Below are positions 1,080 to 37,430 of a stretch of 38,669 nt of DNA, piece by piece (within the stretch, counting starts at the first letter, position 1; each line of letters opens with the position of its first letter). The position numbers and the translations under genes were made by a program. Origin of the DNA: a virus. Under the pieces are notes generated by a model. That model made no database searches. It was not told the origin of the DNA and saw only the letters and a program-made list of their open reading frames with translations. The stretch is from the IMG/VR virus record IMGVR_UViG_3300030090_006472, positions 1-38,669 of that record; one strand, written 5' to 3'.

Positions 1080-3941
1080 TTAATAACCAGAACTATAACC
1101 ACCTCCACCCATTGAACCTCCACTCATGGGTGGTTGTGTTGTGGATGGAGTATATGAAGGTGCTGTTGTTGTTCTAGGTCTTGGTGTGGTTGTTTGTGGG
1201 GTTGTTACCGTTCTAGGTCTTGGTGTGGTAGTGTTCATACTTCTTTCACTACGCTTCTGGTCTTCCAGACTAGGTGGATTTTCATTCGCACAATCAGAAC
1301 ATTGACTTGCACATCCAGGTATACTGCACATTGCAGATTTTACTTTATCCCAGTAGGTTTTTGCCCTATTACATGCATCTGTTCCTTCTGATGGGTCTGC
1401 ACCAGAACCCTGATAACAACAGTTTGGTTTTTCACAACACTGGTGTCCACATCTACCTTCCTTGTGCATCTTTGCCAAGTCTTCGCATGTGTAACAATCT
1501 TCATCATCCACCACTGGACCAGGTCCACTTCCTTCACATCTGCATGGACCACTACCTTGGTTTCTACTCCACTTTCTTTTCCAACAAGCCATTATCAGTT
1601 CGCTGAGTTCTTTCTTTTGTTGACAACATGCACTATCTCCCTCTGCACATCTGTTACACAAGATATCATGTGCATTTGCAGGAATATTACAACATGCTTG
1701 TACTCTTGGTGAACCTTTCTGGTAAATACCAGGAGTTGGACACAATCCTCTTGCATCCTTAGCAAAGTCAGGGAAAATTTGATATTGTCCACAACCAACT
1801 GCCGCACCACCAGGTCCAGGAGGACATTTAGGCCGGGGGTGTGCAGGGTCAGGATCCCCATTAGGTAAGTACTGAGGGTCATTTTTACAAGCATTGCATT
1901 GGTAATCATCGTCAGTGCATGGGGAGACCCCACCACAACTCTCTACTGCCATGATTGCTTGCATCAAACAATTGTCGCAATCACAACACTCGTTGATACC
2001 AGTTACTCCTCCACCACCACCAGGTCCTACTCCCGGTTCTACATCGGGATAAATTACTGGTCCCTCATCACTTCCTCGTTTCAACATTACATTTGCAACA
2101 TTACCCATTCCATTGTGGTTCTTACAGTAGTAATATATTTCTCTACCAGATGCAGGAACTTCAAAGTAAATGTAAGCACCTCTGTTACCAGGCTTCTTAT
2201 TTGTGCGGGTGATGTATCTCGATAATTCACTACCAGAGATGTTACCATCTGCACTGGCTGCAAAGGATAGAGGGTGTGTTCCTTGAAGTCCAAGTGAACG
2301 GTCTGTTAGACTGAATCTATAAACAACACCCTCTTCCAGCATTAACTCTGGTCTTGATTCTGTATTTTGTCCTGCACCATTGAATGCATATACTCTTTTT
2401 CCGTTTCGATATACAACACGAACACGAATTGTTTTTCTTCCTGTTTCATTCCACTTCTCTTCTGCGAGTATTCTTGCTTGAGTTTGTGTAGCATTTCTCG
2501 GAACTGTTACATTGTAAGAAGGAGAAGCATTCCTTGTTTGTGTGGTATTTGTTGTTGGTGTTGGTGTTGGTGTTGTTTGTGTGCTTCTATCTTGTTCTTC
2601 GTAAAAATGCCAGGTCCCACAGCAACTAGATTGGGATCCGACTTCACATCTTTGATCAGAATACCATGTACCCTCATTTGCATTACATTGCCATTCTGGC
2701 ATCGTTACACAATTTGCGTACGGCCAATCTGATCCTGGCGGACCGCACGAGCCGGATAGACAACAAGCACCTTCGGGTGGAGTCAAGTCTGGTCCATCGG
2801 GATCGTTTTCAGGTTCACATCCTGCATCTTCGCATGATACATTGTTTCCTTGATAAATTCCAAGCATTGAAGATGCACATTCTGAAGGCGAAGTTTCAGC
2901 ACACCATTCGTTATTAGGTCCCATACCATCGGGATAACAACAAGCACCAGTATAATCAGATGGTACACATTGTATTTCTTCACATGTCTTACCGTTATGC
3001 CATCTAGAAGTACCTTCTTCCCCAGCCGATGAGTTGCATGTTCGGCGACTCACATCATCTATACAATAATCAGCATCACCTTTTCCGTCTTCATTAACAC
3101 AACATGCACCATAACCAGGCGCGGGTGTTACTAAAACTGCGGGGTCTCGTTGACTTCGTTGATTACTTTTTTCTCTCCTAGAAACAGTTATGTAAATCTT
3201 TGAACCGAAATATGTGGTTCCATCTGCATCATTTGGTACAGGTTCATCGACAGATATAAATTCATGCCCTTCATCACTGATTCTTGTACCAGTCACAGTG
3301 AATGTGGATGTTTCCTTTTTATCGGGGAATTGAATTGTCAGTATATCTCCGACAAGAACTTCCCCTAATGTATTGGAAAATGAATTGGAAGAATTAATAC
3401 CTGCTCTATTTACAATAGAATTCTCCTCAATAACTCTTGTCATTGTAGTAGAACTCTCCGTCCATCTTAGATTATCAATCCAATAGTCAGAGAAATATTG
3501 AGAAATATAATCACTAAGATTGTTGGAAGTCACTTTTGTTGCAACTAAAATGCCACTTTCTTCGTCGAAACTGTTTATCGTGTAAGTTCCTGCGGCATCA
3601 AACACATCACCATTTCCTTGTTGTATTGGATTTGTGTAATTTGCATCTTTAAGTGTTAGTGTTTGTCCTACAACATTTTTGCTATTGAAGAATGATTGTA
3701 TTGATTTCTTAGAATCTTCTGAATGATTGTAAGCCAAACTATAATCTATAACAACATTATTCCCACTAAAAGTCATAGTGGGATTAATTGGACTTATGAA
3801 ATCTTCTTGGTCTACTACTTCTTCATAGTTATCGACAAAATGCAATAGTAAAAACTGCCCGTTTGCACCTGAAACATGGGAGATGGGTACATTCGATACA
3901 CGGTTAGATTTTTTTCGTGCATTATGGCGAGATGGTTGCAT
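1080..3941 (-). CDS. Large virion protein with Cys-rich modules, cupredoxin-like domain and i-type (destabilase) lysozyme domain
   Basis: 953 residues. Residues 1-270 are a non-cysteine virion-type region. About 278-440 hold three Cys-rich modules that begin GACC (278, 332, 391), plus a final SSCC. About 452-480 is a Thr/Pro/Asn linker. About 535-622 look like a type I copper cupredoxin: H556 in THPLSF and C606-x2-H609-x2-M612. About 651-882 match invertebrate-type lysozyme: CLMQ...VES with Glu667 at the catalytic Glu position, CGQYQI (717-722), TCEDLAKMH (818-826) and YWDKV. The catalytic Asp of the family cannot be placed with confidence because of an insertion. Residues 900-953 are a Thr/Pro-rich and Gly-rich tail. 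The gene follows the 3945-5396 gene by three bases. The likely role is a particle-borne cell-envelope- or polymer-degrading protein; the combination is unfamiliar to me. The i-type assignment rests on several aligned motifs, the copper site on ligand spacing only. Confidence 0.85.
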   Translation of the reverse strand: MQPSRHNARKKSNRVSNVPISHVSGANGQFLLLHFVDNYEEVVDQEDFISPINPTMTFSGNNVVIDYSLAYNHSEDSKKSIQSFFNSKNVVGQTLTLKDANYTNPIQQGNGDVFDAAGTYTINSFDEESGILVATKVTSNNLSDYISQYFSDYWIDNLRWTESSTTMTRVIEENSIVNRAGINSSNSFSNTLGEVLVGDILTIQFPDKKETSTFTVTGTRISDEGHEFISVDEPVPNDADGTTYFGSKIYITVSRREKSNQRSQRDPAVLVTPAPGYGACCVNEDGKGDADYCIDDVSRRTCNSSAGEEGTSRWHNGKTCEEIQCVPSDYTGACCYPDGMGPNNEWCAETSPSECASSMLGIYQGNNVSCEDAGCEPENDPDGPDLTPPEGACCLSGSCGPPGSDWPYANCVTMPEWQCNANEGTWYSDQRCEVGSQSSCCGTWHFYEEQDRSTQTTPTPTPTTNTTQTRNASPSYNVTVPRNATQTQARILAEEKWNETGRKTIRVRVVYRNGKRVYAFNGAGQNTESRPELMLEEGVVYRFSLTDRSLGLQGTHPLSFAASADGNISGSELSRYITRTNKKPGNRGAYIYFEVPASGREIYYYCKNHNGMGNVANVMLKRGSDEGPVIYPDVEPGVGPGGGGGVTGINECCDCDNCLMQAIMAVESCGGVSPCTDDDYQCNACKNDPQYLPNGDPDPAHPRPKCPPGPGGAAVGCGQYQIFPDFAKDARGLCPTPGIYQKGSPRVQACCNIPANAHDILCNRCAEGDSACCQQKKELSELIMACWKRKWSRNQGSGPCRCEGSGPGPVVDDEDCYTCEDLAKMHKEGRCGHQCCEKPNCCYQGSGADPSEGTDACNRAKTYWDKVKSAMCSIPGCASQCSDCANENPPSLEDQKRSERSMNTTTPRPRTVTTPQTTTPRPRTTTAPSYTPSTTQPPMSGGSMGGGGYSSGY

Positions 3942-3944
3942 ATT

Positions 3945-5396
3945 TTAACTACCGAGATAATAAACTTGTGTACGACTTGTTCCAGGTCCTGATGATGCAG
4001 ATTTAGCATATATTTTATTCAAGTTGTTGATTTCTAAGAACACAGATTCACCGGGTTCTAGTAAATAACCATTTGAATCGCCATTTACCAATGATGAATT
4101 TCCTACCAAAACATTTGAGTTGTTGTTTGGATCAGCCTTTACTGTTACCCCACTCTTGATTTCTAGATTTTGGTGAAGTGCAGCGGCGGTAGTTCTTAAT
4201 TGTTTTGTACCCGAACGAACCGCAGTTGGTTTCTGAATTTCAGAAATGCTTGCACTCATGGTTCCAGAAGTAATATCATTTCTGATTACTGAAAGCATGT
4301 CCGTTCCTGATTTAATACCAGTTAAGTTGGTATTAAGTGGTTTAGTGGAATCTTCCAGTGCAGAGACAATATCAGTGTCATTGATATCAAGAGAACTGTT
4401 AGTGATGTTTGCATTGATACCACTGGTTGAATATACTTCCAATGCACCTGCGTTTTCACCACGAACGATTACTGGGTCTGCACCTGCTCCCGCAGTATAT
4501 CCCTGTACTCTCAGAGGAGGCATAGTATCGTTTGTAACACCCATTGTGTTTTGTACTGCGATACTGAATGTAATACCTTCGGCTGCATTTACAATGGCAA
4601 CTTTCAGTGCATCACCAGAGAATCCTGCTGTTGCTCCGTCTTCACTTGCCTTTAGTGTGGTTATGACTCTGTTTTGTCCGTCGTGTCCGAATACTTTAAT
4701 AGAATCGGTGGAAGATGTTATTGTTCTACCACCATCTGTATCAACAGAACCAGTTACGGTAACTACATCCATAACTCCAAGTCTTCGTCCACCAGTGACT
4801 GCGATTGGAACACCAAAACCATAACCGGGATATACTTCACCGGCGACTGTTGCGGTTAATCCAGCATATCCACCTTGAACTATAATTCCTTCTCCAGATG
4901 TACCATACAATCCTCTCTGGGACACCATACTGTTTCGTAAATCCACACCACCAGTAACTCTAATCGGAAGTGCATCAGTATTGTTTACTGGTCCTTGAAC
5001 AGAACCAGTTACTGCAATCATTGCGCCTTCGCCTCTACCAGATGTGTTTCCCGCTACTGCTATGAAGTGGACCGCATGTCCATCACCTATTTGGTTATAT
5101 CCTACTACACCATCAGGAGGACCGAGGTTTTCTATGAAGTTCTTGGTCCACACTGCTTCACCAGATTCACCAGATATACGACCTCTGATTTCAATCGGTC
5201 CAGTAGAACCAGTTAACAGAACTGGCAGAGCATTACTTAGGGTTACTCTATTACCTTCTGTATGGTCACCCCAAACTATCTTCGAGATTCCGACATGTGC
5301 ATCACCTAGACTTACTCCAGATAATCCATAGTCTGTTGCCATGTTTGCGGTATCACCGCTAATGTCGATATTGATGTTTCTATTCGTGTCTGCCAT
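3945..5396 (-). CDS. Virion structural protein (fibre or particle-surface type), function unknown
   Basis: 483 residues, very rich in Gly, Thr, Val and Ser, without cysteine. Repeated short units of the type 'PI.VTGS/VTGG' occur (for example around residues 58-75, 124-135 and 145-150), giving a beta-rich, quasi-repetitive structure typical of virion fibre or surface proteins. The C-terminus (GESVFLEINNLNKIYAKS...VYYLGS) resembles the terminal beta domain seen in many tailed-phage virion proteins. A ribosome site (GGAGAA) precedes the ATG. It heads a minus-strand operon with the lysozyme/cupredoxin gene. I do not recognise a specific family; it might anchor or present the downstream enzyme-bearing protein, an inference from the three-base spacing. 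Confidence 0.7.
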   Translation of the reverse strand: MADTNRNINIDISGDTANMATDYGLSGVSLGDAHVGISKIVWGDHTEGNRVTLSNALPVLLTGSTGPIEIRGRISGESGEAVWTKNFIENLGPPDGVVGYNQIGDGHAVHFIAVAGNTSGRGEGAMIAVTGSVQGPVNNTDALPIRVTGGVDLRNSMVSQRGLYGTSGEGIIVQGGYAGLTATVAGEVYPGYGFGVPIAVTGGRRLGVMDVVTVTGSVDTDGGRTITSSTDSIKVFGHDGQNRVITTLKASEDGATAGFSGDALKVAIVNAAEGITFSIAVQNTMGVTNDTMPPLRVQGYTAGAGADPVIVRGENAGALEVYSTSGINANITNSSLDINDTDIVSALEDSTKPLNTNLTGIKSGTDMLSVIRNDITSGTMSASISEIQKPTAVRSGTKQLRTTAAALHQNLEIKSGVTVKADPNNNSNVLVGNSSLVNGDSNGYLLEPGESVFLEINNLNKIYAKSASSGPGTSRTQVYYLGS

Positions 5397-14290: not shown

Positions 14291-16561
14291 ATGACAAGAA
14301 CTCATAGAACATGTTGTTGTAAATGTGCCAATAAACCATGTGATGGTAACGAATATCGTTATGCAGACACATCTGGAAATTGTCCCATATGTGCAATTGG
14401 TGATACAACATTTGTTGAAAACAGATATGAAGAACCTGCACCACTTTTTGATTTCATTCATTCCGATGCATGGCCGTTCAATCCTTCTAGAGATCCAAAA
14501 GCCTTATATGTTGGTAATAAATGTTTAGAGCCACTTACTCCAAATCAAACATGGCCATATCAATCCGAATGTGAATGGGCTTATGAAGCATACGAAGAAG
14601 ATTGCTGGTATTTGTTTCCGATGGATCCTCCAGAACTTACTTTCTACCAAACTGCATCACCTTGGGGATTTATGGCATGGAGTCCTCAAGTAATGGAAGA
14701 ATGGAGGAGGGACTTCGGAGGTCCTTTACTTCCAGCAGGTGATTGCACCATGCATTGCACAGAGGAAAACATAGGATGTCACGGTTTAGCATTTGTTGGG
14801 TCTCTGGGGAAAAATTATGATTGGTTGGATAGAGGAGATGAATATCCAAACTGCGGTTCGGATACTGTAACCCTTCCATCAAGAAATAGAGATGACTGGG
14901 AGTGGATAAGAAATTGGGTGATTTCTGGTGGTAAGTTGGTAATAATGGGAGAATCTAAAGGTTCTCAAATTGGTGGTATTCCTGCATGTCAAAATAACAT
15001 GAGATTCTTTAAACCGAGTAGATATTATTCGGCAAGGTCGTGTGGGTTGTCATGTGATGAAGTGGATGATGAAGAAAGAGAAGTAATAAGTGGTGCTGAA
15101 ATTGCTGAATTTTTAAAAGAGTTTGCAGAATATTGCGGAAGAAGAGAAGACGAAGCAGAACCAACCGAGTGGTTTGAATTTGAACCAGAGTTGCCCTTTA
15201 TTAATTACATTACATTTGATGAGGCGGATGATGGGAATTCATATCCAAAAACATGCTGTCAGAAAACACTTGAACCATTATTCACTAAATTTCAATATGA
15301 AGACGGTTATGAACCACCAGAACCACCAGAACCACCAGGAGACGATGATTACTTAATTGATGCACCAGGTCAGTATTTACCATTTGCTTTTGAATGTTCT
15401 GTTAGTGATGGGTTATATCCGAAAAGATCAAATGGTGGAAGATCGTTAGTTGGTAGTTGCGATGAACGACCTTGTACTGCGGTGTGGAAAGCAAACGGTG
15501 CCGGTGCTGTAATTGTCGTTTATGATTCTAATGTTTGGGGTGTCACGGCTACTCAACTTCCAGACGCTTGGTATGAACAAGAATCTTTAAATCCAAACTA
15601 TATTCGGTATGATGAAGAAGGAAATCCAATATTCATAACCCCCGAAGAATTGAAGATAAGAGATTGTAATAATGATTTTTGGAAGTTTTTATGCGAGGAA
15701 TTTGAGACAGGTTTAGATATTCCCGAAGGAATAGTACCGACAGAATGTCCACCAGAATATGAAAATCAACCCAAATTATGGGACTTGGATGATGGTATAA
15801 CCACTCTAAATCTTGGAGATAACTATAGAGAATCAGAACATTGGTGGCAAAATTACAGATTTAATGCATGTCTTCAGCAAGTGGATGCAGCGTGCTGTTT
15901 ACCTGATGGAAGTTGTGAGCAAACGAATGTCTGGGATTGTTTTCTTGCAGCGGGAAGATGGCAAGGTTCATGGTCAGTTCACCCAGAAGGAAAGTACAAT
16001 AGTTATTGTTGCCCTACTTGTGAAGAAGCAGAATGCGAACCTTTACAACTCGGTGCTTGTTGTGTAACTGTAGAACACGGAAGACAACCAAGATGTGATT
16101 CTGAATTTTGTGGTGAATTTTCACCTATGGGACAACCAGATAGAGGTTGTCCTAGATTTGCATGTTGTTCACAGGATGAAGATTTAACTTGGTATCCCGG
16201 CCGAGGTTGTAATCAATTCTGCACAACCACCGATAGACCACCAGACCCACCAGATCCTCCGGATCCACCAGACCCACCAGATCCTCCGGATCCACCAGAC
16301 CCACCTGACCCACCAGATCCTCCGGATCCACCAGATCCTCCGGATCCACCAGATGGTACAACAACAACAGACGCACCTGATCCTCCAACTACTACTACTA
16401 CTACAACAACAGATGCACCAGAGGATGATCCTGATGGTGATGGTGATTGTTGTGATGGACAAGACCCAAATGCTGATGCAAATTGTGTAGAGCAATGTAC
16501 GACTTGTTGTGGGTGTGCTACTAATTCAAGTGGAGATGTTCTGGGGTGTTATGTAGAATGA
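14291..16561 (+). CDS. Large Cys-rich virion protein with amidotransferase-like fold and (PPD)13 linker
   Basis: 756 residues. The N-terminus has a Cys cluster (TCCCKCANKPC, then CPIC). About 162-222 (HGLAFVGS...WEWIRNWVISGGKLVIMGE) and about 397-470 (AVWKANGAGAVIVVYDSNVW...FWKFLCEE) look like the two halves of a class I amidotransferase-like Rossmann fold as in ThuA/DUF4350 proteins, separated by an acidic insertion with a PEPPEPPEPP run. No catalytic Cys-His pair is evident, so it is probably a structural or binding domain. Residues 534-645 hold Cys-rich modules (AACC, GACC, FACC), followed by thirteen PPD units (650-688), a Thr-rich stretch and a final Cys-rich tail. No good ribosome site is seen; it starts six bases after the hub gene, so translation is probably coupled. 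Role unknown; baseplate location inferred from neighbours. Confidence 0.75.
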   Translation: MTRTHRTCCCKCANKPCDGNEYRYADTSGNCPICAIGDTTFVENRYEEPAPLFDFIHSDAWPFNPSRDPKALYVGNKCLEPLTPNQTWPYQSECEWAYEAYEEDCWYLFPMDPPELTFYQTASPWGFMAWSPQVMEEWRRDFGGPLLPAGDCTMHCTEENIGCHGLAFVGSLGKNYDWLDRGDEYPNCGSDTVTLPSRNRDDWEWIRNWVISGGKLVIMGESKGSQIGGIPACQNNMRFFKPSRYYSARSCGLSCDEVDDEEREVISGAEIAEFLKEFAEYCGRREDEAEPTEWFEFEPELPFINYITFDEADDGNSYPKTCCQKTLEPLFTKFQYEDGYEPPEPPEPPGDDDYLIDAPGQYLPFAFECSVSDGLYPKRSNGGRSLVGSCDERPCTAVWKANGAGAVIVVYDSNVWGVTATQLPDAWYEQESLNPNYIRYDEEGNPIFITPEELKIRDCNNDFWKFLCEEFETGLDIPEGIVPTECPPEYENQPKLWDLDDGITTLNLGDNYRESEHWWQNYRFNACLQQVDAACCLPDGSCEQTNVWDCFLAAGRWQGSWSVHPEGKYNSYCCPTCEEAECEPLQLGACCVTVEHGRQPRCDSEFCGEFSPMGQPDRGCPRFACCSQDEDLTWYPGRGCNQFCTTTDRPPDPPDPPDPPDPPDPPDPPDPPDPPDPPDPPDPPDPPDGTTTTDAPDPPTTTTTTTTDAPEDDPDGDGDCCDGQDPNADANCVEQCTTCCGCATNSSGDVLGCYVE
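16238..16354 (+). repeat. Tandem repeat coding for (Pro-Pro-Asp)13
   Basis: 117 bases in frame, thirteen 9-base units built on CCACCAGAC, CCACCAGAT and CCTCCGGAT variants. Synonymous changes between units are frequent at third positions. The product is a rigid, acidic polyproline-type rod between the Cys-rich modules and a Thr-rich tail. Confidence 0.95.
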
Positions 16562-27951: not shown

Positions 27952-30900
27952 ATGGTAGGAGTGATTCACGGTAGTAGTTTTTTTAGACCCATAGGAAATG
28001 AAGCAGCGACTGGTCCTACCGGTCCAACAGGTCCTACTGGTTCTACTGGTCCTAGTGGAACTGGACCTACAGGTGCAACAGGAATTACCGGCCCTAATCT
28101 TTCCGTCATGTATCTTGTTGACAATGACGGGAATCCTACCCACACAGGGGACAAACTTTTTCATATTTTCTATGGTGCTACCTATCATGGTGGTCCAATG
28201 TCACCAGTAGGTGTTACCACTGACTATACAACGAGTACAAAAATTCAAGGGCCCACAGGAGATGCATATATTGCAATCGATGGTGGTAACACTTTCGACC
28301 ATTCTCAACCAGAAGGTAGAGATGGTACAATGGGTGTGTTTTTAGAACAGAATGGTCCTAATAGTATTAAGTTGAAGTCTATAGAGGTTACTGGTGATTC
28401 GTTAACCTTAACTCAAAATCAAGATTTAAATACCATTGACCTTAAATATGATAGAGGAAGATTTGGTTATTTAAACACTGAAGGTAATGCTCAAGGTGCA
28501 TTGGTAGGAACTAATGTTGGTAATATTGCAATACATGGTTTTACTGGTGCATCATACGACAGTCAAATAGGTGCGATTGATGTTGCACTAAAAAGTTACA
28601 AAGAACAAACAAGATATTTGACTGTGGGTGACACAGTAGGTGATTTTGTAAACTTATCTTCTGGATTAGAACAAATTCCACACTATACAGGAACCATAAA
28701 CACAAATTCTGCAAAGGTATTTGTATTAAATATGAGACAACTTCCTGGTGTTGATTTTACACTAGAAGGAGATAACGAAATACCACCAAACATTGTAACA
28801 GGACACACTGGTGGTTTAGTAGTAAGACTTTCAGACGCTGAGTTTGGTTACACTGGAAATGGACCAATTAATGGTGCAGGACAAGATATATCCAAAGCAT
28901 TCACATTAATTGTGGATGGTGCGAAGATGGGCAATCCACCCGCAGAACAAGTTAGATTCACAAACACTATATGGCCTTTAGATAGACAACCTTGCTTTAG
29001 TGGTGGTACTGATATATTCAACTTCTTCTGGCTTCCTTGTTCATCCGAAGATTCAAGATGTCCAAATGGAAATGCATGGTATGGTAATGTAGTTCAATGG
29101 AAATCTCCAGATACAGAAATTGTTGCAGGTGGTGGAGAGGATGTAGATCCTTTCTATTGTCATGATGAATTTGGAGGTCTAAGAAACTATACTGGAAATC
29201 AAACAGATTATCCTGGTATTGAATTGAACTTTGATGGTTCTACTGGTGCAACTGGTGCATGTTGTATAGGTGATGGGAATTGTGTTCACACCACAAAGAA
29301 CAAATGCCTAGGTTACTTCTTAGGTTCTGGTGTTGCATGTGGAACCAAATGTTCTGAAGTTGGAGCATGTTGTATTTACTATGAAGATACTGATGAAACT
29401 GATTGCAGAATAACATCGGTAAGTGAATGCATTGACTTGGGAGATATTGACAGAATAACAACATCATTTGGTGGAATAGGAACCGAGTGTCAAGATGTAG
29501 ATTGTGTTTCTGCAAGAAGTAGTCTAGGAGCATGTTGTGACGGGAGAGGCGGTTGCACACAGAAAACAGAAGAAGAGTGTGAAAGAGTTGGTGGATTCTT
29601 CCAAGGTTCTGGTAAACCTTGTGATATAGTTTATGGTGATAACTTAATCAATGTCTGTTCTGGTGGTACTGGAGCATGTTGTCAAGGAGATGGAACATGC
29701 ATCGATGGTATTACTGGAGGAGAGTGTTTAACAGCAGGAAAAGTTTATGCAGGAGATAATATCAAATGTGTAGATATTTCTTGTTCTGAGAATGATGGAA
29801 AAAGAAGTATAGGTGCCGTCGCTGGTTTAGATTTAAAACCTGGCGATTTATACGGTGGTGGTATGGTAGTGGGTATATACCAACCATACGGTTCTCATAT
29901 GTTCGGTTCTACTGCCTTTGGTGGTGATAGAGATGTTCATTGGGAAACTTTGATGCAGGGCAATTCTGATGGAGCAACTTTAGATAGTAGTGGAATGCCT
30001 TGTGGAACTGTTCGTTCTCAATATGACTATCATGGTTATGGGTTTACCTCAGAAAAAGGATGTCTGGAACTTAATCGGTTTGATATAAACGATGACACAA
30101 TAAAAGCAGATGCATACTACATTATAACTTCAATGGTTCCGATGGCAATCACTGGAGATAGAAGTATCGCAAGTCCAATCGATCATCCGGGTGCGACTTC
30201 AGAGTTCTATTGGGGTAATCGAGGAAGTTCTTGGGGACCAATTTATAATAGAAAAACAGAACAATTGGATGACTTAAGTTCTGAATATGTTTCTAAAGTC
30301 TTCCCATATAGAGAAGGTTATTGGTATAATCAAGATTTAGGAAAGACTGGTTCCTTTAACAACATTCCGATTAACACATTTACTACATGTTCAAAGGCAA
30401 GAAGAAATGGAAATGGTGGTGTTAATAAACTTACCACACAACCACTACAAACAGCACATGGTTTCTGGAAAAGAAACTATGGTATCTACAATAACATTAG
30501 AGTAATTGGTGCAGACAATGCACTCTTTAGAGATTACAATGCTCCTGATTTTGAATCCAGTCAATTTGGACCTGGTCTAACTGCTGACTATGTTTCTGCA
30601 TTCCGTGCTTGTAGATTGTATGATGATAGAATTACATCTGCAACTGGTGCAACCGCTGGAGATAATACAAGGCTGTCTGGTTGGTTTATTCCTAGTCATG
30701 ATGAGATGGCATTTATTGCTCAGAATTGTTTGTCTGAAAACGAAGAGTTTAATTTAAATTCAAGTCTATTCCAAGAAGGTGGTATGCCATTTGCAGGTTG
30801 GCACTGGACATCTACTGGAGCATTCGATGAATTTAAAGGTTTCACTGCTGGACTTGGTACTGGAGAGGGTATTGCAAATGGTGCATCCGCTGATGCAGGT

Positions 30901-31113
30901 ACTTTGGCTTGGGCTATGAATTTTGATGTAAACGGAAATTCTGATGAGTTCCTTGTTGGGAAAAAACATAGAACCCATAATAAATACAAGGTAAGACCTA
31001 TCAGAATACTCAGAGTTGATGGTCAATATTCTACTGGTGGTTCCGAAAATGAAAAACTTTGGAAGTTACCAAAAGTACAAAGAGATTCTGATAAAGGAAT
31101 TAATCAGGATTAG
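27952..31113 (+). CDS. Collagen-like fibre with four Cys-rich modules and a DUF1566/C-type-lectin-like tip
   Basis: 1053 residues. About 19-48 are collagen-like Gly-X-Thr/Pro triplets (TGPTGPTGPTGSTGPSG). A beta-rich shaft follows. From about 434 to 613 lie four GACC modules (GACC, then Cys near +8, EC or KC, GG/FG turn, final C..C). From about 630 the 'GGGMVVGIYQP' start and, at about 873-1023, 'FRACRLYDD', 'LSGWFIPSHDEMAFIAQN', 'FAGWHWTST' and 'AWAMNFDVNG...YKVRPIRIL' form a DUF1566/Lcl-type C-type-lectin-like fold. Such folds bind receptors in many adhesins. A tail-fibre tip role is likely. The ribosome site is poor (GAACATAAA). Confidence 0.75.
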   Translation: MVGVIHGSSFFRPIGNEAATGPTGPTGPTGSTGPSGTGPTGATGITGPNLSVMYLVDNDGNPTHTGDKLFHIFYGATYHGGPMSPVGVTTDYTTSTKIQGPTGDAYIAIDGGNTFDHSQPEGRDGTMGVFLEQNGPNSIKLKSIEVTGDSLTLTQNQDLNTIDLKYDRGRFGYLNTEGNAQGALVGTNVGNIAIHGFTGASYDSQIGAIDVALKSYKEQTRYLTVGDTVGDFVNLSSGLEQIPHYTGTINTNSAKVFVLNMRQLPGVDFTLEGDNEIPPNIVTGHTGGLVVRLSDAEFGYTGNGPINGAGQDISKAFTLIVDGAKMGNPPAEQVRFTNTIWPLDRQPCFSGGTDIFNFFWLPCSSEDSRCPNGNAWYGNVVQWKSPDTEIVAGGGEDVDPFYCHDEFGGLRNYTGNQTDYPGIELNFDGSTGATGACCIGDGNCVHTTKNKCLGYFLGSGVACGTKCSEVGACCIYYEDTDETDCRITSVSECIDLGDIDRITTSFGGIGTECQDVDCVSARSSLGACCDGRGGCTQKTEEECERVGGFFQGSGKPCDIVYGDNLINVCSGGTGACCQGDGTCIDGITGGECLTAGKVYAGDNIKCVDISCSENDGKRSIGAVAGLDLKPGDLYGGGMVVGIYQPYGSHMFGSTAFGGDRDVHWETLMQGNSDGATLDSSGMPCGTVRSQYDYHGYGFTSEKGCLELNRFDINDDTIKADAYYIITSMVPMAITGDRSIASPIDHPGATSEFYWGNRGSSWGPIYNRKTEQLDDLSSEYVSKVFPYREGYWYNQDLGKTGSFNNIPINTFTTCSKARRNGNGGVNKLTTQPLQTAHGFWKRNYGIYNNIRVIGADNALFRDYNAPDFESSQFGPGLTADYVSAFRACRLYDDRITSATGATAGDNTRLSGWFIPSHDEMAFIAQNCLSENEEFNLNSSLFQEGGMPFAGWHWTSTGAFDEFKGFTAGLGTGEGIANGASADAGTLAWAMNFDVNGNSDEFLVGKKHRTHNKYKVRPIRILRVDGQYSTGGSENEKLWKLPKVQRDSDKGINQD

Positions 31114-31129
31114 CGGAGGATGAACATCA

Positions 31130-34102
31130 GTGCCAGAAATTTATGGTTCAAGTAGAATAAGAAATGTCAGTGGGATATCTACGCTAGTAGGTCCCACTGG
31201 TTCTACTGGCCCGGCCGGACCTACGGGTTCGACTGGTGCAACTGGAACTACTGGTGCAGGTGGAACTTTTGGTGTAGGTATATTCTCTGGTTTAACTGGC
31301 GCATCGGGTGGTGATGGTGTTCGATTCTTTCGTGAAGGTGAATATGGCGGAGACTTTATAACATTTTATCTCACTGACGGAACCACACTGGGAATTAGTG
31401 GCGCAAGGGGTGCAACTGGAGAAGCAGGTGATGATTTTATCATATCAAATACAATAACCGATGCAGGTTATGGTGGGGTATTTGATTACAAGAATGGAAT
31501 TACAGCATATTTCAGAAACTTAACGGTTAGTGGAAGAGATATAGAAATAGAGTCAAATGATTATAGTGTTCTATTAAGAGGTATAACATACGATAGTGGA
31601 ATCTTAGGAAACACTGGAGAACTTCTGTATCAGTTTGATGGATTATCAGCACAGGGTGCCAAGAACACATATTGGGACAATGCAAACAATAATCTTCTTG
31701 CAAGAATATTAGTTCACAAAGAGGCAGATGATAGTAACAATTTAACCGAGTCGGGGACTAATTACTCAACAGTTGTTTCACCAAGTAAACTTGAAGGTGA
31801 TGTTGTTCCATTTACATATCATTCTGAAACTGTAGAAAATATTGATGATCCTGATCCTAGTCAATTAGAAAAACCATTTGAAGGTTTTAGTTCAGTTAGT
31901 GGTTTACATTTAGGAAAGACGGCAGATGATGCTGGTGTAGAATATGATTGGGTTTATACTTTCCCAGGTCTGACATTTAGTGAAGGAATAACCGCTGCAA
32001 TTATTGGTTCTTGTTGTTATTGTGAAGATAAAGGCACAAACGATCAAGATGCACCGAATTGTATTGATTATGTTACAAAACAATATTGTTCTAATGTCGG
32101 TGGAGTCTTCGATGGTGTGCATACTTGCATCGAAAGACCAGAAGGACCTAATTGCTATGTTGATGGTGCTTGTTGTCTGTTTTCGGAAGAAGGAAGAACA
32201 TGTGTTCAAACTGTTGCAGAAAAATGTGAAAGGTTTGGTGGATTCTTTATTCCAGATTTGACATGCGATGAACTTGAAGTGTTAGGAGACGAAGACAATC
32301 CCATCGGTTGTCCAAATCCATGTAGAGTTGATGGTGCATGTTGCATTAATAATGTTTGTTTTGAAATGACAGAATATGAGTGTTCTTTAAATCCAAATGG
32401 TAGTTGGATACCAGATAGAACATGTGCAGAAGTTAACTGTTGTACCGAGGCACAGTTTGGTGCTTGTTGTTTAGATGAAGTCTGCTATAATACGACTCCT
32501 CTTGATTGCACAACATACAAATCTACAGATGGCTCTACAGGAATATACTGGGGACTTGGTTCAAAATGTGCAGGTCCGTTTGAGGAATCTAGATACTACG
32601 CATATGATTGTACAAATTCAAATGGAGAACTTGTAGGAAGATTGGATGAAAACGGATTGTGTGCTGATGGAAATCCTCCACCATGCACATCAGAATGTTT
32701 GGGTTGGACTCAGATAGTTCAAGACGAATGTGTAAATGAAGATGGTGTAGAAAACATTTGTAAGTGTCTTGAAGATGTTGGTGGACCATATCAATGTGAT
32801 TGTGATTGTAATGCATGTGGAGGTAGTGAGGAAGATGAACAATCTTGTGGTTCAATAAAACTTGCAGATGGTAGTTGTTGGGAATGCTGTTGCAGTTCAG
32901 ACAACTTACCAACAACCACCACTACTACGGCTGCACCAGTATCAGGTTCTTGTTGCTACTATGACCACATTCTTCGGGAATGGAACTGTGTTCCTGAAGG
33001 ATTCCAATTCGGTGAAGATTCACAACCTGTTGATGCATTCTATTGTCTTTCAGATTGGTCTGTGAATGAAAATGGTGATTATGTAGATCCACCAGATGGT
33101 TTAGATGGAACATGGAATGAAACTCCATGCAACGAAAGTTGTGATGAAGTTTATAGGTCGGGTGTGTGTTGTAAATTATTCCCAGGTTTTAATTTTGGTT
33201 ACGAATGTACAGAAACCGAAAATGAATTTTTATGTAACGAAGATGACATATTCTTAAATGATTGTGAAGAGTGTGCCGCCTTCGCGGATAGTATTGATTG
33301 GGATGGGGCTGGTTATGGTAATGGATGGAATTGGGATCGTAACGAGGCATGTTGTCCTGCTCAAATTTATAGAACAAGAGAGTGGTATCCCGGAAATTCT
33401 CAATTCGAGGGAGACGCGAGTGTTCGATGTCCTGATGGTTCTTTCCCATATCCCGGAAGTCCTTGTAAGAAATGTGTGAGGGATGATAGAGTATGTCCTT
33501 GTTGGAAACTCAAATGGAATGAAGATGGAAACTTCGATAGAGCAGATGAATGCGGATGCAGGTTATATGCAATTCCTCGACAACTCATGGTTGTAGCCAG
33601 TGCCTGGCAGCAGGCCCATCAGTGTCCAATCTATGGAGAAGATCCTCTCTGTAATTATGATGACAGTGTGTTTGATTGGTGGCATATGCAACACGAGTGT
33701 AAATTCTGTTTTGGTTGGTTTGGTACTTATGGGGGTGGTGGTATTGACTTTGATAATGTAGATGAAGGTATAGCAGGACCATTCTGTCAAATGGGTTCAG
33801 GAAATCGTGAAATTTGCGAATCAGATGCTCTTTGGGCAGTTGCAGAAAGAAGAAGACTTAAAAATATCTGTGAAGAACTGTATACCTCAATAGAATATAG
33901 TAGGTACAGATGTTGTGATTATGCAAGTGGAATTGACGAAAATTGTGATGGTTGTGGTTGGTGGCCTGGTGGAGCATTAGCGGGAACTGGTTCTGGTGGA
34001 GGAGGTTGCATGTTCGAGGGAGAACCTCTACCAAATGAAACATGTTGCACAACATATCAAATACCACCAGTGGAAGATCCTTGTGAAGAGTGGCAACCTT
34101 GA
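31130..34102 (+). CDS. Collagen-like fibre with Cys-rich modules, first of a tandem pair
   Basis: 990 residues. Start is GTG at 31130, supported by the ribosome site GCGGAGGA and by the identical N-terminus of the next gene, which uses ATG. Residues 19-45 are collagen-like (VGPTGSTGPAGPTGSTGATG). About 45-200 are a shaft domain shared almost word for word with the next gene. From about 293, at least seven CC-type Cys modules follow (GSCC, GACC x3, GSCC, GVCC, EACC), broken by a Thr-rich linker at about 592 (PTTTTTTAAP). The C-terminus is Cys- and Gly-rich. Cys content suggests many disulfides once exposed to oxygen; binding target unknown. Confidence 0.75.
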   Translation: MPEIYGSSRIRNVSGISTLVGPTGSTGPAGPTGSTGATGTTGAGGTFGVGIFSGLTGASGGDGVRFFREGEYGGDFITFYLTDGTTLGISGARGATGEAGDDFIISNTITDAGYGGVFDYKNGITAYFRNLTVSGRDIEIESNDYSVLLRGITYDSGILGNTGELLYQFDGLSAQGAKNTYWDNANNNLLARILVHKEADDSNNLTESGTNYSTVVSPSKLEGDVVPFTYHSETVENIDDPDPSQLEKPFEGFSSVSGLHLGKTADDAGVEYDWVYTFPGLTFSEGITAAIIGSCCYCEDKGTNDQDAPNCIDYVTKQYCSNVGGVFDGVHTCIERPEGPNCYVDGACCLFSEEGRTCVQTVAEKCERFGGFFIPDLTCDELEVLGDEDNPIGCPNPCRVDGACCINNVCFEMTEYECSLNPNGSWIPDRTCAEVNCCTEAQFGACCLDEVCYNTTPLDCTTYKSTDGSTGIYWGLGSKCAGPFEESRYYAYDCTNSNGELVGRLDENGLCADGNPPPCTSECLGWTQIVQDECVNEDGVENICKCLEDVGGPYQCDCDCNACGGSEEDEQSCGSIKLADGSCWECCCSSDNLPTTTTTTAAPVSGSCCYYDHILREWNCVPEGFQFGEDSQPVDAFYCLSDWSVNENGDYVDPPDGLDGTWNETPCNESCDEVYRSGVCCKLFPGFNFGYECTETENEFLCNEDDIFLNDCEECAAFADSIDWDGAGYGNGWNWDRNEACCPAQIYRTREWYPGNSQFEGDASVRCPDGSFPYPGSPCKKCVRDDRVCPCWKLKWNEDGNFDRADECGCRLYAIPRQLMVVASAWQQAHQCPIYGEDPLCNYDDSVFDWWHMQHECKFCFGWFGTYGGGGIDFDNVDEGIAGPFCQMGSGNREICESDALWAVAERRRLKNICEELYTSIEYSRYRCCDYASGIDENCDGCGWWPGGALAGTGSGGGGCMFEGEPLPNETCCTTYQIPPVEDPCEEWQP

Positions 34103-34124: not shown

Positions 34125-37100
34125 ATGCCAGAAATTTATGGTTCAAGTAGAATAAGAAATGTCAGTGGGATATCTACGATAGTAGGCCCCACTGGTTCTA
34201 CTGGTCCCGCTGGTGCTACAGGTGCAACTGGTGGGACCGGTTCTACTGGTGCAGGTGGAACTTTTGGTGTAGGAATCTTTTCTGGACTTACTGGTGCTTC
34301 AGGTGGCGATGGTGTTCGATTCTTTCGTGAAGGTGAATATGGCGGAGACTTTATAACATTCTATCTTACCGATGGAACAACATTAGGAATTAGTGGCGCA
34401 AGAGGTTCTACAGGAGAAGCATCAAATGATGTTTATCAAATATCAAATACAATAACCGATGCAGGGTATGGTGGAGTATTTGATTTTAAGAATGGAATCA
34501 CTGCACATTTTAGAAATCTAACAGTCAGTGGCAGAGATATAGAAATAAATGCAAATGACTATAGTATTTTACTAAGAGGTGTTACTTATGATACTGGAAT
34601 CTTAGGAAACACTGGAGAACTTCTATATCAATTCGATGGACTATCGGCACATGGTGCCAAGAACACATATTGGGACAATGCAAACAATAATCTTCTTGCA
34701 AGAATATTAGTCCATAGAGAAGCAGATGATAGTAACACTCTACTTAAATTACCAACAAACGAACAAACGATAGTAAGAAAAGATTCGCCTGGTGCATCTG
34801 TTGCTTTTGAACATATGTTTAAAACATCTTCAAATCGAGCGGATGAAACAGATAACATGGATGCAAACATAGTTGGTATTCATTTAGGAAAGACAGCAGA
34901 ATCTGGAACTGATGTAGAATATAATTGGATTTATCATTTTCCTGGTTCAACATTTGGTAGTATTATAACACCATCAACATTGGGTTCATGTTGTTTCTGT
35001 GAAGACAAAGACGACCCTTATGCACCAGATTCTCCGGGATGTATTGATTATGTCACTGAGGCATATTGTTCTAGTATCGGTGGTAAATTCTCAACAGAAA
35101 CTTGTTTGAATAGACCAGAAGGTCCTAGTTGCTTATCTCAAGGTGCTTGTTGTATAAATGATATTTGTGTTGCATCATCTGAGGAAAAGTGTGTCGATGT
35201 TTATGGTGGATTCTTTGTTCCAGATTTAACCTGTGATGAACTTGAATTATTAGGTGATGAAGATAATCCTATTGGATGTCCGAATCCCTGTGCAGACAGA
35301 GGTTCTTGTTGTATCAATAATATTTGTTATGATTTAACAGAATATGAATGTTCATTACAACCAAATGGACTCTTCTTTCCAACTCCATGTTCAATTACAA
35401 ATTGTTGTCTAGAAGGTCATGTTGGTGCCTGTTGTATGGGTGAAGTTTGTTATGAAACCACCCCACTGACATGTTCAAATATGGGTGGAGTATTCTGGGG
35501 AATCGGTTCTGCATGTAGTGGACCTTACGGTGCATGGAAAGACAACCCAAATTATGTTGAAGGAAGATATGCTCCATATGAATGTGTTTTAGAAGACGGA
35601 ACCATAGGTGGTATTTTAAATGGTGGAAATTGTCCAGATGGAAATCCTCCACCATGTACATCAGAATGCATAGGATGGACTCAGGTAATATCAGACGAAT
35701 GTGGTGAAAATATATGTGCATGTGAATATGGTGGTTTAACTTGTCCTTGTGAAGATGCAACTGATGAATATGGTTGTAACATATGTGGTAGTAACACAGA
35801 GTCTTGTGGTGGCATAGTTCTTACAGATGGTAGTTGTTGGGAATGTTGCTGTGATTCATCAGATGCCACAACAACCACAACAACTGAGGCTCCAGATGAC
35901 ACCACTACTACTCAAGCACCATATGGATATTGTTGCGAACAGGGAGAAGGTGATTTCGGGAATGGGTGTTTATATTACGACGAAAATGGAGAGGTAAAAG
36001 GAAACTGCCTGTGGAGATGTTACTTGGGTATAGCGTGTGGGTGTGCATACCAGTTCGATGGAGAAGGTTATAACAATGCATGTAATGCCTCTCCAGGGTG
36101 TACTACTTATCAGGGATACCGTTGCACTTCCGTGTGGATTGACTTATTGAATCTGGTTGATTCAGGCCAAATGACATCGCAAGAGGCCGAGGACATATTC
36201 TTAACTGAGGAACCTTATGCTACTCAATGTGAAGGTTACTATGATCCGGGGATGATATACGACTCTTCACTGACAGATGGTTCTACTACACCCCTGAACC
36301 CTAGATATTCGTTTAGAATATTCGATTTTGTTGATGACATCCGCGTCCCAACATGTATGGTAGGACACACACCGGGTGTGACATGGTATGATCATTGTGT
36401 TGAAGCCGCTGGTGGAGATTATTTCCCATGTAACAATAATCTCCCAGGCACTCCAATGGACTGTCCCCAAGAATCTTGGATGGACGGAAATCCATGTATA
36501 AATCCTGATTGTTGTCCAATTGAACCAGAGGAACCACCGTTCCCCGGCGCACCCGATGGAGGAACTCGTCAAGTAAATGAACCACTCATGCAACGGCCCG
36601 GCTACCTCACCGGCGACGAAGCCCGAAGAAGTAGTTCTCCTCGTGGGGGAGGAGCATCATGTTTACTTACATTAGAAGCAGATTGCATTGGTACTTGGTA
36701 TGAGGATTATAATGACTGTCAAACTAATTGCATAAGTCTAGACAATGCTTGTTGTCACCAAGAATCAGGAAATTGTTATCATGTAGATACTTGCGGTGAT
36801 TGTCCTGAAGGAAACGAATGCACACCCAATGAAACCTGCATGGATGTAGGATGTGGTGGTGACGGTCAAGGGTGTACATCTGATGATGATTGTATAGACA
36901 ATTATTGTTGTGACCCAAATCTAGAAGTATGTTTACCATGTGGGTGGCAAGATGATTGTTGCACAAATCCTGATATTTGTCCAGAAGGTTGGGAATGTAA
37001 TACAAGTATGTGTGCTTGTATTCAAACTGGTGGCCCAGGCGATCCCGATGATGACAGTGGTGGTGGTCCAGGTCCCGACGAGGGAACGATAGGTGAAGGA

Positions 37101-37430
37101 GTTTGGTGTTGTAATGGTGGAATGCTCGGTGGTAGTGGATGTGATTGTGCATCATGGCCAACCAACTTCTGTTGTGTTTATGTTCCGATTGATTTAAATC
37201 CAGAGTGTATTGGATATGATTCTGGACCTCATGGGACTGAAGAGGAATGTTATCAATCATGTTGTGGTTTTGAAACTGAAGGAGCAACTTGGAATGGGCC
37301 TCGTCCGTGTGAGAAAGAAACAGATTGTAATGGAGAACAATGTTGTTGTGCCGGATACTGTACTAATTGTATTCAAGATGCAAATGATCCCGCGGGCGGT
37401 TGGATATGTCCTCCGAAGTTTTATGGATAG
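34125..37430 (+). CDS. Collagen-like fibre with Cys-rich modules, second of a tandem pair
   Basis: 1101 residues, paralogue of the gene before. The start and first 40 codons are nearly the same even at DNA level (bases 34126-34176 match 31131-31181), and the shaft (about 45-205) stays highly similar; the sequences then diverge. From about 287, CC-type modules follow (GSCC, GACC, GSCC, GACC), then two Thr/Pro linkers near 580-605 (TTTTTTEAPDDTTTTQAP) and a second Cys-rich part with 'ACC' and 'CCNGG' units unlike those of the first copy. An Arg-containing break (GEARRSSSPRGGG, near 825) separates them. It is preceded by a weak late-promoter-like box and ribosome site AAAGGAAA. Probably a distinct receptor-binding fibre from duplication and tip divergence. 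Confidence 0.75.
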   Translation: MPEIYGSSRIRNVSGISTIVGPTGSTGPAGATGATGGTGSTGAGGTFGVGIFSGLTGASGGDGVRFFREGEYGGDFITFYLTDGTTLGISGARGSTGEASNDVYQISNTITDAGYGGVFDFKNGITAHFRNLTVSGRDIEINANDYSILLRGVTYDTGILGNTGELLYQFDGLSAHGAKNTYWDNANNNLLARILVHREADDSNTLLKLPTNEQTIVRKDSPGASVAFEHMFKTSSNRADETDNMDANIVGIHLGKTAESGTDVEYNWIYHFPGSTFGSIITPSTLGSCCFCEDKDDPYAPDSPGCIDYVTEAYCSSIGGKFSTETCLNRPEGPSCLSQGACCINDICVASSEEKCVDVYGGFFVPDLTCDELELLGDEDNPIGCPNPCADRGSCCINNICYDLTEYECSLQPNGLFFPTPCSITNCCLEGHVGACCMGEVCYETTPLTCSNMGGVFWGIGSACSGPYGAWKDNPNYVEGRYAPYECVLEDGTIGGILNGGNCPDGNPPPCTSECIGWTQVISDECGENICACEYGGLTCPCEDATDEYGCNICGSNTESCGGIVLTDGSCWECCCDSSDATTTTTTEAPDDTTTTQAPYGYCCEQGEGDFGNGCLYYDENGEVKGNCLWRCYLGIACGCAYQFDGEGYNNACNASPGCTTYQGYRCTSVWIDLLNLVDSGQMTSQEAEDIFLTEEPYATQCEGYYDPGMIYDSSLTDGSTTPLNPRYSFRIFDFVDDIRVPTCMVGHTPGVTWYDHCVEAAGGDYFPCNNNLPGTPMDCPQESWMDGNPCINPDCCPIEPEEPPFPGAPDGGTRQVNEPLMQRPGYLTGDEARRSSSPRGGGASCLLTLEADCIGTWYEDYNDCQTNCISLDNACCHQESGNCYHVDTCGDCPEGNECTPNETCMDVGCGGDGQGCTSDDDCIDNYCCDPNLEVCLPCGWQDDCCTNPDICPEGWECNTSMCACIQTGGPGDPDDDSGGGPGPDEGTIGEGVWCCNGGMLGGSGCDCASWPTNFCCVYVPIDLNPECIGYDSGPHGTEEECYQSCCGFETEGATWNGPRPCEKETDCNGEQCCCAGYCTNCIQDANDPAGGWICPPKFYG

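Follow-up and report, generated by a model that had tools for sequence, protein, structure and literature searches.

A cysteine-rich domain homologous to i-type lysozymes in a probable virion protein of an uncultured T4-like phage

The window analyzed here is a stretch of 38,669 nucleotides from the virus record IMGVR_UViG_3300030090_006472 (45,157 bases in IMG/VR), and its minus strand carries an open reading frame (ORF) at 1080-3941 that encodes a probable virion protein of 953 amino acids. Residues 651-885 of this protein (1287-1991, minus strand) contain 32 cysteines and insertions of ~100 amino acids, and profiles, alignment and predicted fold assign them to the i-type lysozymes (Destabilase-like). 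According to sequence comparison, the domain and the i-type lysozymes are of common descent. We consider it probable that the region is a divergent, disulfide-rich i-type lysozyme domain and that the protein containing it belongs to the virion of a T4-like marine phage, as yet uncultured.

The i-type lysozymes are treated as a family of animal innate immunity and digestion. Small phage i-type lysozymes are already known; they are common in viral metagenomes and some are named destabilase in databases. PhaLP 2.0 (PMC13237592) briefly refers to "destabilase" domains among predicted phage lysins and concedes that they could stem from training proteins with wrong annotations. In the literature, we found no description of an i-type domain in a phage virion protein or of a cysteine-rich enlarged form. 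This 32-cysteine form is novel. In several close relatives, the syntenic gene has a different cysteine-rich module at its end and no i-type domain, and the domain also occurs in other architectures (L097, L099, L113, L114, and L120, loci of our relatives set). Hence, it is a movable module that uncultured T4-like phages carry in probable virion proteins.

Homology to i-type lysozymes

The domain presents, in this order, NCLMQAIMAVES (with Glu667), GCGQYQI (717-722), ACWKRKW, TCEDLAKMHKEGRCG (818-832) and TYWDKVKSAMC. The initial annotation had recognized these motifs, and all of them are found in the order and at the places it gave. It had also seen insertions that double the length, and cysteine-rich insertions of ~100 residues indeed make the domain about twice as long as an animal i-type lysozyme. 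The location it proposed holds as well, with boundaries that shift slightly from 1294-1994 to about 1287-1991.

Relatives were collected by scanning IMG/VR with a DNA pattern for TCEDxAxxHxxG, which returned ten stretches, two of them chance matches and two identical to each other. The remaining stretches encode cysteine-rich domains with E-S, CG[PQ][YF]QI, [CY]W.RR[YFW]TRN-like, TCED[IL]AR[MI]HNGG and YW motifs. The window domain shares 42% identity with that of L098 across ~226 amino acids (E 3e-45) and matches the other relatives recruited by the pattern with E-values of 1e-5 to 1e-14. Two further scans added L113, L114, L120, L124, a contig from an archaeal metagenome-assembled genome (L116) and ~66 small i-type lysozymes. 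Searches for related loci with either the domain or the full-length protein as query gave no i-type relatives, and since the domain is missing from the syntenic genes of the closest relatives, homology at the gene level was no help in finding i-type kin. The pattern CGQYQIxP gave one match, a chance occurrence in an unrelated protein.

A profile of eight phage domains searched against 177,635 PDB sequences matches only the four i-type lysozyme sequences, namely destabilase (E 5.4e-12), Meretrix (2e-6 and 3e-6) and Tapes (3e-5). In hhalign, the same profile scores 98.5% against the animal i-types (E 2e-15). When a profile is built from small phage and animal i-type enzymes, the window sequence alone reaches 96% (E 4e-9) against it, whereas eight control segments from three other cysteine-rich proteins of this phage remain at or below 5%. 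As the relatives had been collected through the recruiting motif, this motif was masked in the profile; the small phage lysozymes, destabilase (2.8e-6) and Tapes lysozyme (1.3e-4) all score above ~2,400 shuffled decoys. Because the domain is conserved in relatives and scores against the i-type profile far above the control segments, it is not a chance resemblance.

Structure prediction is in line with the profiles. AlphaFold2 with a 34-row alignment as input gives a model with a predicted local distance difference test score (pLDDT) of 78 and a predicted template modeling score (pTM) of 0.78; from the single sequence the prediction is useless (pLDDT 39, pTM 0.25). In VIA-align, the model matches five i-type entries with Z 9.2-10.4, leech destabilase with Z 10.4 (118/119 residues, root-mean-square deviation 3.1 Å) and the clam lysozymes with Z 9.2-9.8. 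The next fold is a chitosanase at Z 3.6, and no further fold family comes close to the i-type entries, although absence from this list is not evidence against other folds. In Foldseek, the first four places among PDB chains go to i-type lysozymes, and the best match among viral proteins is a phage protein that bears the name "Destabilase". The alignment behind the model held i-type-like phage sequences, and the fold evidence and the profile evidence are thus not fully independent. The domain is predicted to fold as an i-type lysozyme.

The i-type lysozymes, and no other family, are indicated by profile-profile comparison, by the profile-to-PDB search, by the control with the masked motif and by the comparison of structures, as the initial annotation had claimed. 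It had proposed a search with Pfam PF05497 and a structural comparison with Tapes japonica lysozyme, and had named the lack of a profile match combined with an unlike fold as grounds for rejection. These grounds do not apply. The window protein has no direct PF05497 match above the curated cut-off, but its relative L100 exceeds this cut-off (32.1 vs 26.2 bits), and structure prediction gives an i-type fold.

Known enzymes and the active site

The animal i-type lysozymes used for comparison are those of Tapes japonica (2dqa) and Meretrix lusoria (3ab6, 4pj2) and leech destabilase (8bbu, 8bbw), all of PF05497. The window domain shares with them the order E-S ... CG-x-[YF]-QI ... D ... C[ED]xxAxxH ... 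YW, the predicted fold, the active-site Glu and His, and the cysteines at CG and TCED. These cysteines are present in the cysteine-rich phage branch and in the animal enzymes and are lacking in the small phage enzymes. Unlike the animal enzymes, the window domain, besides its doubled length, has 32 rather than ~13 cysteines, HKEG in place of HNGG, no secure Asp and no Ser49/51, and it is embedded in a probable virion protein of 953 amino acids.

In destabilase, Glu34 and Asp46 form the muramidase pair and Ser51-His112-Glu34 is the proposed isopeptidase triad, with Ser49 and Ser51 in DVGSLSCG as proposed nucleophiles (PMC10126035). Glu667 (1941-1943, minus strand) is the equivalent of the first-helix catalytic acid Glu34 (numbered in the destabilase precursor) and His826 (1464-1466, minus strand) that of His112, the latter followed by KEG instead of NGG. 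Both are invariant in the 34 aligned sequences, as are Gly718 and Gln721, divergent sequences included. The catalytic Asp, which precedes the SCG/GPYQI motif in the family, lies in GDxG in the small phage enzymes and in L100, where the window has a long insertion. Asp696 and Asp698 in NGDPDP (1848-1856, minus strand) align near the GDxG of relatives in a low-confidence loop and are weak candidates for the equivalent of Asp46; CD in the sister L098 corresponds to CP in the window. The view in the initial annotation that this residue cannot be placed therefore stands. In the alignment, Ser49 and Ser51 have no Ser counterpart in the window sequence GGAAVGCG. Judged from sequence, the general acid (Glu667) is in place; its partner carboxylate is uncertain.

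Small secreted phage i-type lysozymes, found in IMG/VR and in the Cellulophaga phages Calle and phi38:1, carry a domain homologous to that of the window. They differ from it in their size (130-215 amino acids), few cysteines, N-terminal hydrophobic segment and intact GDxG and HNGGPKG, and they resemble lysis enzymes more than virion components. Loci L127-L195 (~66 loci) encode cysteine-poor phage proteins of this kind (~130-215 amino acids, with the N-terminal hydrophobic segment). Each of the eight small proteins from IMG/VR that were scanned passes the Pfam Destabilase cut-off (33.5-47.7 bits), and the six small phage i-type proteins tried have no PHROG match. In the cultured-phage collection, L141 matches only the Cellulophaga phages Calle and phi38:1/phi40:1, and the Calle product is noted as destabilase-like in GenBank. 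The statement in the initial annotation that lysozymes of T4-like phages are normally of gp5 or e type thus understates the range, as many uncultured phages encode small i-type lysozymes. T4 gp5, the T4-type lysozyme domain of the baseplate spike, and other virion-associated lysozymes share the presumed job of the window domain, local peptidoglycan opening during injection, but gp5 belongs to another lysozyme family.

In a tree of 37 domains, all cysteine-rich phage domains group together (96/93) and the window domain and L098 are sisters (100/100). The tree is unrooted and hence cannot give the direction of transfer between phages and animals. That animal and phage i-type domains share an ancestry involving phages, in either direction, with the cysteine-rich phage branch as a trace of this exchange, is a speculative scenario that we regard as improbable. 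A contig binned as Candidatus Pacearchaeota from Lake Baikal (L116) encodes an i-type lysozyme (4698-5240, plus strand) intermediate between the cysteine-rich and cysteine-poor phage types; this contig could be viral or contaminating.

The gene and its setting in the phage

The ORF at 1080-3941 closes a run of minus-strand genes with homologs of head-closure, tail-tube and baseplate-hub genes and a gene for 483 amino acids at 3945-5396; plus-strand genes, gp32 among them, break up this run. By its gp32 and its gp6-type baseplate wedge protein, the phage belongs to the T4-like phages, near cyanophages and pelagiphages. The N-terminal part of the 953-residue protein and the synteny are common to related phage contigs. 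Residues 1-260 (3162-3941, minus strand) are a conserved domain of the gene family and presumably its virion anchor, with 29-35% identity to the syntenic genes L094, L092, L017, L100, L098 and others and no match among cultured phages. GACC-type cysteine-rich repeats at residues 278, 332 and 391 and a CC at 440 follow (residues ~275-452; 2586-3119, minus strand), and GACC-like repeats recur in other window proteins. Residues ~498-632 (2046-2450, minus strand) form a domain common to structural and tail proteins of cyanophages and pelagiphages (tblastn; 28-38% identity to ten phage records, E 7e-7 to 2e-3). This domain ends in YYYCKNHNGMG, with the pattern H...C-x2-H-x2-M and an upstream His; it appears cupredoxin-like by eye, and H, C, H and M could form a type-1 copper site.

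Beyond the i-type domain, residues 886-953 (1083-1286, minus strand) comprise a Thr/Pro-rich linker and a Gly/Ser/Tyr-rich C-terminal tail of a type common to sister genes. Similar tails (GGMSSGY, GGGYGGGY, GGYSY) are seen in the window (1083-1130, minus strand) and in L011, L016, L094, L097, L098, and L099, sister virion proteins of differing length, which suggests a shared C-terminal signal. Four more very cysteine-rich proteins are encoded on the plus strand of the window (27952-31113, 31130-34102, 34125-37430, and 14291-16561), three of them combining GACC repeats with N-terminal GPTGPTG stretches that are collagen-like, and together they are probably an unusual battery of disulfide-rich fiber proteins. 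Inspected by eye, the window seems to begin within a tRNA gene, of which the 3' part would lie at ~1-45 on the plus strand (GGTTCGAGTCCTGCC).

Possible role and significance

The likely role of the protein is that of a virion-associated peptidoglycan hydrolase or binder. The N-terminal 260 residues would anchor it in the virion, in the tail or baseplate or on the virion surface, and the cysteine-rich repeats and the domain common to cyanophage structural proteins would lead on to the i-type domain. The latter may engage the peptidoglycan of the host envelope at adsorption or injection. Glu667 would serve as the general acid in cutting between MurNAc and GlcNAc, or the domain would only bind the glycan if it has lost catalysis, and its many cysteines may form disulfides outside the cell that steady the enlarged loops. 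A virion protein fits the neighboring head-closure, tail-tube and baseplate-hub genes and the PHROG baseplate and fiber matches of sister proteins.

Several observations weigh against an i-type lysozyme acting from the virion. The window protein alone has no significant match in Pfam, PHROGs, NCBIfam or PDB sequences, of which the gaps in Pfam, PHROGs and PDB count here, and Foldseek E-values to the i-types are weak (0.07 at best). A collection of 50,697 cultured-phage records holds no match to the domain and no cultured phage with the gene, and sister genes without the domain imply that it is not essential to the gene's role. In the active site, the catalytic Asp has neither a secure position nor a fixed conserved place, Lys790 replaces the middle Arg, and HNGG is changed to HKEG in the window and L098 only, the other 32 aligned sequences having HNGG. 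A hidden Markov model of three animal i-type sequences does not detect the window protein either; it and the direct searches miss the protein because of the long cysteine-rich insertions, which are visible in the alignment. The lack of a direct family match and the many other cysteine-rich proteins of this phage would suit a region that resembles i-type lysozymes through its motif only, but this is contradicted by the masked-motif control, the control segments, the profile-to-PDB search and the structure match, and is hardly conceivable.

The missing Asp and the HKEG change might instead have killed catalysis, leaving an i-type fold that only binds glycan or peptidoglycan as an adhesin of the virion. 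This is possible, though not likely: the domain is swappable and occurs alongside other cysteine-rich modules that look binding-like, but Glu667, His826, Gly718, and Gln721 are retained even in the divergent sequences, and the g-type and SLT lysozymes of the superfamily work with Glu alone. A destabilase-like isopeptidase that cleaves epsilon-peptide cross-links could draw on the homology to destabilase and on the His and Glu kept from the proposed Ser-His-Glu triad. Since the serines proposed as nucleophile (PMC10126035) are absent, isopeptidase activity is unlikely, and we regard this reading as highly improbable. Of the two activities that the initial annotation had considered, a role at peptidoglycan thus appears likely and isopeptide cutting is disfavored.

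As a module of T4-like virion proteins, the cysteine-rich enlarged form would extend the i-type family to a new role. The phage domains are natural variants with active sites from intact to degenerate, from which the residues needed in i-type catalysis can be learned, and they add candidate cell-wall enzymes overlooked by PHROGs and, for the cysteine-rich branch, by Pfam. Together with the many small secreted phage i-types in IMG/VR, they bring the question of where the animal enzymes came from within reach of an answer.
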